This document shows, piece after piece, positions 1,913 through 3,102 of a stretch of 44,188 nucleotides of DNA. The DNA lies in the NCBI GenBank assembly GCA_002049545.1, contig LLYT01000012.1, positions 1 to 44,188 of the forward strand, in the 5' to 3' direction. This stretch comes from Deltaproteobacteria bacterium tcs-42 (GTDB lineage Bacteria > Desulfobacterota > Desulfuromonadia > Desulfuromonadales > Geopsychrobacteraceae). Below the pieces are notes generated by a model. That model was not told the origin of the DNA and searched no databases. It saw only the letters and a list, made by a program, of their open reading frames with translations. Both the position numbers and the translations under genes were made by a program. Position 1 is the first letter of the stretch; every line of letters starts with the position of its first letter.

Positions 1913-1985
1913 GAGCAGGTACTATTCCCCGACTGTCAACTCGACTTTACGTGCAAAGGGACAGGCACCCTTGCCCCCCCCTTGG
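1913..1985. repeat. Composite repeat: GGTACTATTCCCC motif plus decayed GGGACAGGC unit
   Basis: GAGCAGGTACTATTCCCC at 1913-1930 is followed 27 bases later by GGGACAGGCACCC, whose right arm is lost in a C-run. The same pair of motifs, in the same order but with 39 bases between them, recurs at 2994-3084. They therefore look like parts of one composite repeat. Confidence 0.65.
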
Positions 1986-2179: not shown

Positions 2180-2944
2180 TTATCTTAACCCTTCAGACTT
2201 TTCCTTAACTTTTAAATATATTTCTTTGATTATATCTTTATGATTCAAAATATTATTTATAGCCTGACACATTTCTTCGGGTTCATCATCATATTGGTGT
2301 GAAATTTCATTTCTTATTTCCCGTAGGTTCATCCACTCCTTAGCGCTACTTATAAAACCTAATTTTTCCAGTTTATTCAGCAAATCAATAAATGGTAACA
2401 CCTCGTCGGTTGGTTCATACGCTTTTAGTAGCAATCTGAAAACCTTGTCACCCAATGTATCTTGCAGCTTTGCAAACCTAAAAAGGTACTGATCAATATC
2501 CTGAACCTCGTCTTTAGTTAGATTTTTATATTTACTAACCGATATAGGAAGAATGGTAGAAATATCACCATAAGCCTCTTCCACTCGCTGCAGATGCTTG
2601 TCACATTCGTTGAAATATCGATTTATTTTAATCTTTGTCAAATCCAATTCTATCCCCTTCTTTGCTTCAAGGTCTATTACTCTGTCGGTAGCAGAAGAAA
2701 AGACAACATCTATTTTTTGCTCTCCAATAACATCTTGCAGTCTTGATAAAAAATCTATCTTTTTATCAAACTTGTCTGCTCCATCATATTCAATAAACAG
2801 ATCAATATCTCCACCTTTTTTGTTATCATCAACTCTGCTGCCAAAGAGGTAGATTTTCACGTCTGAGCCAAAAACACGGTGATTTAATTTTAAAATATTT
2901 TCTATCTCAAATTGCGATAATCTCATTTTTTGCCCTATAGACAC
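2180..2944 (-). CDS. Single-chain MNT nucleotidyltransferase-HEPN protein
   Basis: Residues 1-105 form a minimal nucleotidyltransferase: the motif 'YLFGSRVDDNKKGGDIDLFI' supplies the GS and the metal-binding DxD, and 'KIDVVF' a later strand aspartate. Residues 110-254 are an all-helical HEPN-like domain with 'REIRNEISHQYDD', which fits the RX4HXY motif of HEPN RNase toxins. In two-gene HEPN-MNT systems the nucleotidyltransferase neutralises the toxin by AMPylating the tyrosine of that motif. Here both activities are joined in one 254-residue chain. The first codon in the track is GTG (2944). An ATG at 2926 with an AGGG six bases upstream is equally good. The gene is clearly richer in A+T than the LPS genes, suggesting transfer. 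A HEPN-fold protein without RNase activity is possible. Confidence 0.75.
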   Translation of the reverse strand: MSIGQKMRLSQFEIENILKLNHRVFGSDVKIYLFGSRVDDNKKGGDIDLFIEYDGADKFDKKIDFLSRLQDVIGEQKIDVVFSSATDRVIDLEAKKGIELDLTKIKINRYFNECDKHLQRVEEAYGDISTILPISVSKYKNLTKDEVQDIDQYLFRFAKLQDTLGDKVFRLLLKAYEPTDEVLPFIDLLNKLEKLGFISSAKEWMNLREIRNEISHQYDDEPEEMCQAINNILNHKDIIKEIYLKVKEKSEGLR

Positions 2945-2990: not shown

Positions 2991-3084
2991 TGAGGGGGAC
3001 CGGTACTATTCCCCGGCTTTAAACTCAAGTTTTAGCGACTTCAACTTCACAATCAAAGGGACAGGCACCTGCGGAGCCAGTCCC
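2991..3084. repeat. Composite REP-like repeat, copy with both motifs intact
   Basis: TGAGGGGGACCGGTACTATTCCCC (imperfect palindrome) is followed by a 39-base spacer and the full 27-base GGGACAGGCACCTGCGGAGCCAGTCCC palindrome at 3058-3084, identical to copy 1. It lies directly upstream of the MNT-HEPN gene and marks the right limit of the repeat-rich islet. Confidence 0.75.
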
Positions 3085-3102
3085 TTTGGAATCCAGATGT
3101 GG

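Follow-up and report, generated by a model that had tools for sequence, protein, structure and literature searches.

A type VII toxin-antitoxin-like gene with its antitoxin and toxin halves in one frame and a conserved internal start that may provide free HEPN toxin

How can a toxin that carries its own neutralising enzyme ever be switched on? This question is raised by a gene in a 44,188-nt stretch of DNA from Deltaproteobacteria bacterium tcs-42 (contig LLYT01000012.1, positions 1 to 44,188; the whole stretch is called the window below), in which a minimal nucleotidyltransferase (MNT) and a HEPN domain are joined in one chain. A sequence-only reading of the locus had described it as a toxin-antitoxin self-contained in one polypeptide. 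The MNT half and the HEPN half are indeed of the type VII toxin-antitoxin kind, and both signature motifs are conserved across the clade of such fusions. The word "self-contained" is not supported by our analysis, which revealed that the HEPN start codon and ribosome-binding site of a two-gene ancestor are kept inside the fused gene. We consider it fairly probable that this is a type VII toxin-antitoxin built as one gene for two proteins, namely the fusion and a free HEPN toxin made from a conserved internal TTG or ATG start with its own Shine-Dalgarno sequence. It may then be partly moot to ask how the toxin is switched on, since a separate toxin half is probably made as well.

The full-length gene is located on the minus strand, which the earlier reading had left unstated, at 2180..2926 (ATG start, 248 amino acids and stop; an AGGG is present at 2933-2936 upstream of the ATG). 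The frame previously placed at 2180-2944 is real, but the upstream GTG at 2944, with which the listed frame starts, is a less likely start than the ATG at 2926, because the homologues begin with MRL. The MNT domain (residues 1-93; 2648..2926, minus strand) matches the Pfam families Polbeta (36.1 bits, cut-off 26.9, E 7e-9) and NTP_transf_2 (25 bits, cut-off 21), and contains the catalytic GSX10DXD motif GSRVDDNKKGGDID (residues 29-42; 2801..2842, minus strand), which is invariant among the homologues and is complemented by a third Asp, D73. The HEPN domain (residues 96-248; 2183..2641, minus strand) matches NTase_sub_bind (PF08780, the HI0074/HEPN-M family) with 26.1 bits, which is under the cut-off of 31.8, at an E value of 9e-6. 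It harbours RNEISHQY (residues 205-212; 2291..2314, minus strand), an exact RX4HXY motif conserved in relatives, with Tyr212 as the predicted AMP acceptor. Thus, the earlier observation of a GS...DxD nucleotidyltransferase followed in the same chain by RX4HXY holds according to Pfam, conservation and structure. Co-occurrence of the motifs by chance was rejected on the basis of the Pfam domain matches and the architecture kept across homologues.

At the junction of the two domains, a TTG codon (Leu94; 2645..2647, minus strand) is present as a candidate translation start, and the Shine-Dalgarno-like sequence AAGAAGGGG (2654..2662, minus strand; anti-Shine-Dalgarno energy -7.2 kcal/mol, stronger than at 97% of the positions of the gene) is located 6 nt before it. 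Initiation at this codon would result in a separate HEPN product of 155 amino acids (residues 94-248; 2180..2647, minus strand), the N-terminal register of which is that of HEPN in the two-gene relatives: the Leu94 codon aligns with their HEPN start, 11 residues before the same Phe. At this ancestral HEPN start, 18 of 25 fused genes have TTG, two have ATG (L030 and L092) and five have another codon. Each of these five exceptions (L016, L019, L028, L032 and L085, from four lineages) harbours an ATG within two codons of the junction, and the exact site aside, no such ATG was found in the other 20 genes. As a background, TTG accounts for about 17% of the other Leu codons of the fused genes, and ATG is found in 6.5% of their five-codon windows. 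According to a gene-wise simulation, 4.0 TTG codons are expected among 23 Leu codons, and the observed number of 18 was never reached in 1e6 draws. Further, residue 94 has the lowest codon entropy of 16 Leu columns (0.97 bits, the next being 1.36), and on the tree it has undergone the fewest synonymous changes (5 in 23 rows, compared to 7-15 at those other columns that have 23 rows or more). In most pairs tested, synonymous sites are close to saturation or past it, with a number of substitutions per synonymous site (dS) of about 0.7-4.6 or beyond measurement. The seven genes which were found after the pattern had been noticed (L085, L088-L093) show five TTG, one ATG and one nearby ATG, and three further partial or broken fused copies all have TTG at the junction.

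The region preceding the codon points in the same direction. The upstream AAAGGAGTNGAA, with the Shine-Dalgarno-like AAAGGAG, has an anti-Shine-Dalgarno energy stronger than that of about 97% of gene positions (median; top 2.5%). It is kept at a synonymous position, where Gly91 is encoded by GGA or GGG in 21 of 22 cases, as opposed to 65 of 157 at seven other Gly columns. The local mRNA structure at the junction is weaker than at 74% of positions, and only three columns of the gene contain a start codon in more than 40% of the rows: residue 1, residue 94 and a Met at 219. Although it does not prove that a protein is made, we regard this as good evidence of selection on initiation at the junction, and the gene probably encodes two polypeptides, the MNT-HEPN fusion and a predicted free HEPN of 155 amino acids.

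Some observations weigh against this interpretation. TTG is a weak start codon. The upstream K-G-V/I residues are also constrained as protein, and the Shine-Dalgarno sequence is therefore partly forced. The tree was not modelled in the draws of the simulation, but the parsimony count, which does take it into account, agrees with them. Moreover, codon preferences exist at other Leu columns too (TTA in 15 of 24 at residue 60, CTT in 17 of 24 at residue 27). Such preferences, and the position exactly at the domain boundary, would suit a need at the mRNA or codon level other than initiation, like pausing between the domains or codon-pair bias, with no internal product. We consider this distinctly unlikely, because it leaves unexplained the ATG at the same site in L030 and L092, the nearby ATG in all five exceptions, and the match of the site with the HEPN start of the two-gene relatives.

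Alternatively, the gene could be a true single-chain toxin-antitoxin comparable to EzeT and CapRel, of which the full-length chain only is made. Its MNT would AMPylate its own HEPN in cis, the TTG and the Shine-Dalgarno sequence would be a relic or serve another purpose, and activation would depend on a phage or host trigger, on proteolysis or on de-AMPylation. The intact motifs and the conserved fused frame are in line with this possibility, and CapRel (PMC13423816) and EzeT (PMC4826407, PMC4803016) are precedents for fused toxin-antitoxins. However, a relic would have decayed at saturated synonymous sites, and the TTG persists despite this saturation, being lost only where an ATG is present within two codons. 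This makes the single-chain explanation rather unlikely in our view.

The two-gene relatives suggest how the internal start arose. In the closest of them the order is MNT-HEPN with an overlap of 4 nt, and the HEPN frame offset is identical in every resolved case. Their MNT gene ends with ...G-V/I-x-L-TGA, and the A or G before TGA opens the HEPN start (ATGA/GTGA). The fused homologue L030 reads ...GVE-ATG-AAT..., and we infer that its junction is what a two-base deletion at the TTATGAAT overlap would leave, with the old ATG as an internal codon. In a tree of 38 sequences, based on the joined MNT and HEPN halves, the 18 fused genes, most of them from Campylobacterota, form one clade next to two-gene relatives (support 99/99; 98% of bootstraps), and this clade was also recovered with the HEPN half only (97/98). 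Judged by these trees the fusion is old and single; independent recurrent fusions are not needed, since the fused genes are one clade at 99/99. At one locus (L011 5001-6555), the fused gene overlaps by 4 nt with a two-gene MNT-HEPN pair directly downstream, which belongs to the same family.

Taken as a whole, the locus is best explained, with a probability that we rate as moderately good, as a fused type VII operon with an internal start, from which the fusion and free HEPN are made. The overlapping genes of a class I (PF08780-like) HEPN-MNT type VII operon would have been joined in a single event, when a small indel at the ATGA overlap changed the frame, and the ribosome-binding site and start codon of the downstream gene would have been retained in frame. 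In the full-length chain, MNT would use ATP to AMPylate Tyr212, either in its own HEPN or in that of a partner. The weak TTG start would give rise to free HEPN (about 155 amino acids) in smaller amount, which would assemble with the fusion into HEPN dimers or larger oligomers and be AMPylated in trans. The tether would keep the antitoxin always present and the internal start would supply HEPN in excess of MNT; such HEPN-rich oligomers would resemble the published (HepT)6(MntA)2, as a 6:2 stoichiometry of the complex and AMP transfer to Tyr are known for HepT/MntA (PMC7641770). If synthesis of the full-length chain, the supply of ATP or the modification fails, HEPN that is free or has lost its AMP would act as an RNase. 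If this is true, a bicistronic toxin-antitoxin could become one gene with separate dosage of the toxin kept. Annotation pipelines, which record only a 248-amino-acid "nucleotidyltransferase domain" protein, would miss the inner product.

An AlphaFold2 model with an input alignment of 12 fused homologues (mean predicted local distance difference test score 87.6, predicted template modelling score 0.75) contains two domains, MNT (1-96) and HEPN (96-247), in accordance with the two domains for which structure prediction had been proposed by the sequence-only reading. The linker is nearly absent in the model, with the last MNT strand ending at 93 and the first HEPN helix beginning at 96. Residues 1-96 match the Legionella MNT 8xeo (Z 11.7, 2.7 Å over 94) and HI0073 1no5 (Z 11.4); these relatives were found by fold comparison alone, as a sequence search of the PDB with the MNT half found none at E 0.01. 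Residues 96-247 match HI0074 1jog (Z 14.3, 3.0 Å over 131), the Legionella HEPN toxin 8yuf (Z 13.1) and HepT 6m6w (Z 12.1), Z values at a level where helical bundles can share the arrangement only. Since all of the best fold matches are HEPN toxins or related proteins, and RX4HXY is in the same register, the assignment of the modelled C-terminal domain to HEPN is secure. The sequence-only reading would have been refuted had residues 110-254 turned out not to be HEPN, and the C-terminal half matches HEPN folds.

Is the HEPN half functional? In close pairs, the number of substitutions per non-synonymous site (dN) of HEPN is 0.04-0.22 and dS is from about 0.75 up; dN is well under dS in both halves, and in seven of the eight pairs compared it is lower for HEPN than for MNT. 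The sequence comparison shows purifying selection on both domains, and a decayed HEPN was rejected because dN is far under dS in this half. According to Anantharaman et al. (2013), HEPN domains fused to MNT typically are without the RNase residues and probably inactive (PMC3710099), and the domesticated nucleotidyltransferase-HEPN fusions (KNTase, GlnD, DUF294) are characterized by loss of RX4-6H. The fused clade described here, in which the motif is retained, is by its sequences an exception: its catalytic motifs are kept, unlike in the domesticated fusions of the literature. The general statement that nucleotidyltransferase-fused HEPN domains have lost the RNase motif is thus contradicted for this clade.

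At the same time, the motif alone is no proof of an RNase toxin, because its Arg and His are dispensable in Legionella and H210 is lost in some relatives. The latter, presumed to be the RNase His, is replaced in the fused L014 and in the split L037, L041 and L052, and mutation of R/H in RX4HXY of the Legionella HEPN hardly affects the RNase activity (PMC11586414); both weigh against the toxin interpretation. The Legionella enzyme needs a Gln/Glu metal site (PMC11586414). In a profile alignment an invariant Arg150 stands near the Glu of its helix-2 Gln44/Glu47 site, with a gap in the helix that makes the placement ambiguous, and the Mg-binding Gln/Glu of helix 2 are probably not conserved in the fused family, as far as this uncertain alignment allows. 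From the sequences, RNase activity of the HEPN half is likely, not assured.

The conservation of these residues was followed in the family. The 12 homologues from GTDB genomes belong mostly to Campylobacterota, with one each from Cloacimonadota and Acidobacteriota, and genome searches added more. The whole architecture is kept in 11 homologues with 48-67% identity, in which G29, S30, D40, D42, D73, R205 and Y212 do not vary. Across 17 fused and split relatives, R205 and Y212 are always present, and H210 is replaced in three; among 18 non-redundant fused genes, R and Y are found in all and H210 in 17, the exception being L014. In this fused homologue (L014 2577-3329), the motif reads RX4YXY, with Y in place of H; the gene is followed by fragments of a further MNT-HEPN pair, and a Y1 transposase gene is located nearby (L014 524-1273). 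Intact fusions are present in nine of the 397 Campylobacterota genomes sampled, any fused or split relative in 68. No fused copy was found in other genomes among 195 relatives of the source organism, homologues of the fused protein were absent from IMG/VR and phage records, and the single plasmid match is MNT-only. The source genome also harbours a canonical PF08780 HEPN gene (G000:C57:1998-2357), which is over the Pfam cut-off in a frame of 135 amino acids. The fused gene has a GC content of 33% in a window of 45%, and is thus consistent with acquisition from an AT-rich donor.

In the window, the fused gene comes after a Wzz-like gene where a polysaccharide and heptose locus ends. Many fused homologues are found within nucleotide-sugar and polysaccharide operons, frequently with overlapping ends (L011, L015-L020, L028, L030, L031, L085, L093). 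Pfam analysis of chosen neighbours identified UDPG/GDP-mannose dehydrogenase, Gmd, CBS-NTP transferase, cytidylyltransferase, sugar transferase and Wzz. A count of polysaccharide neighbours within 2 kb by motif regular expressions (6 of 25 fused, 1 of 15 split, 1 of 24 canonical genes) was too crude and was not used as a statistic. Such surroundings could point to a metabolic role of the fused gene: more than half of the fused genes adjoin surface-polysaccharide or nucleotide-sugar genes, often with overlapping ends, and domestication was proposed for fused HEPNs by Anantharaman et al. (PMC3710099). On the other hand, the contexts vary, some fused genes being located between hsdS and hsdM or beside cobalamin or flagellar genes, and the close two-gene relatives are ordinary MNT-HEPN pairs, so that we find a metabolic role improbable. 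An addiction or defence module that is mobile and has settled at variable sites would fit these surroundings, which could also suit a metabolic role. In L033 (301-3726) and L091 (1-3461), the gene between hsdS and hsdM of type I restriction systems has overlapping ends. In L085 (1501-3447), it shares one frame of 649 amino acids with a UDP-glucose dehydrogenase-like gene that follows it after a repeat-like RTGTSVPA segment, and the RTGTSVPA peptide recurs inside the dehydrogenase part.

Repeats and further modules surround the fused gene in the window. Repetitive extragenic palindromic (REP)-like repeats (AAAGGGACAGGCACC...GGAGCCAGTCCCT) at 209-239, 1271-1301, 1955-1985 and 3055-3085 stand between toxin-antitoxin modules, so that every module has copies at both ends. 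Two of these REP-like repeats, one to each side of the fused gene, are accompanied by a second repeat (1918-1948 and 3002-3032). The resulting units (families D1 and D4, no strand) are located beyond its 3' end (GGTACTATTCCCC... then AAAGGGACAGGCACC...; 1918..1985) and, as a matching unit, on its 5' side (3002..3085). The other modules, all on the minus strand, are a HicAB-like pair (491-958), a truncated MNT gene (946-1191) and an intact ParD-like/ParE-like pair (1326-1881; Pfam 9e-22 and 2e-35). In the first, the DUF1902/HicB-like antitoxin is at 728-958, and the HicA-like frame downstream of it (…SHEIWCNPETKRFTTIPNHPGDMPEGTLRAILKQADIKPDDFL) can be read as a whole only with a frame change near 620-680. 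The MNT gene comprises the N-terminal part up to the GS motif only and is a remnant of another MNT-HEPN module.

How does the fused gene compare to known systems? The type VII class I systems HepT/MntA (Shewanella SO_3166/SO_3165, Aphanizomenon, Legionella lpg2920/lpg2921) share with it the GSX10DXD MNT, the RX4HXY HEPN with Tyr, and the folds. They consist of two adjacent genes with MNT usually 5', whereas the fused gene is one frame with MNT N-terminal, and unlike them the fused protein is under the NCBIfam MntA and Pfam PF08780 cut-offs. It reaches 27.5 bits with NF047752 MntA (cut-off 60 bits), a model of one divergent subfamily and not an equivalog, and its MNT and HEPN matches in NCBIfam and PADLOC are all sub-threshold. 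HI0073/HI0074 (PF01909/PF08780) provides with 1jog the closest solved structure to the HEPN half and with 1no5 one of the two closest to the MNT half; these again are two genes, and the HEPN half is only 19% identical over the structural match. The earlier statement that known systems use two genes is nearly right, but not strictly, since fusions were listed before: PF08780 HEPN was described as "occasionally fused to MNT" by Anantharaman et al. 2013 (PMC3710099), and Makarova et al. 2009 named a HEPN-MNT fusion on pAgK84 (PMC2701414). The latter (WP_011199109, L098) also combines NTP_transf_2 and HEPN in one chain, but was rejected as an earlier example of the fused family, because its HEPN is of class II (PF05168), its sequence is without RX4HXY, and the protein has no significant similarity to the one in the window.

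Fused toxin-antitoxins (EzeT, CapRel) and gene-within-gene toxin-antitoxins with an inner antitoxin (RpnL/RpnS) are already known. In the literature searched, with subscription papers outside its scope, we found neither a described internal start in HEPN-MNT nor a type VII module that is fused, contains both motifs and has a conserved internal start for its toxin half. CapRel and EzeT, in the parts of their descriptions available to us, also have toxin and antitoxin in one polypeptide, but their antitoxin domains are non-enzymatic, their toxin folds are other ones, and no conserved internal start is described there. RpnL/RpnS (PMC10327210) resembles the fused MNT-HEPN in that an internal in-frame ribosome-binding site and start provide a separate C-terminal product of a toxin-antitoxin gene; a conserved internal ribosome-binding site and in-frame start, the mark of a gene within a gene, were found here computationally. 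The proteins are unrelated, and the inner product of RpnL/RpnS was shown by experiment, whereas that of MNT-HEPN is predicted. In RpnL/RpnS the inner product is the antitoxin, and in MNT-HEPN it would be the toxin half. Thus, a gene within a gene with the toxin as inner product is predicted, in which, as the inverse of RpnL/RpnS, two start codons in one frame would set the ratio of toxin to tethered antitoxin.
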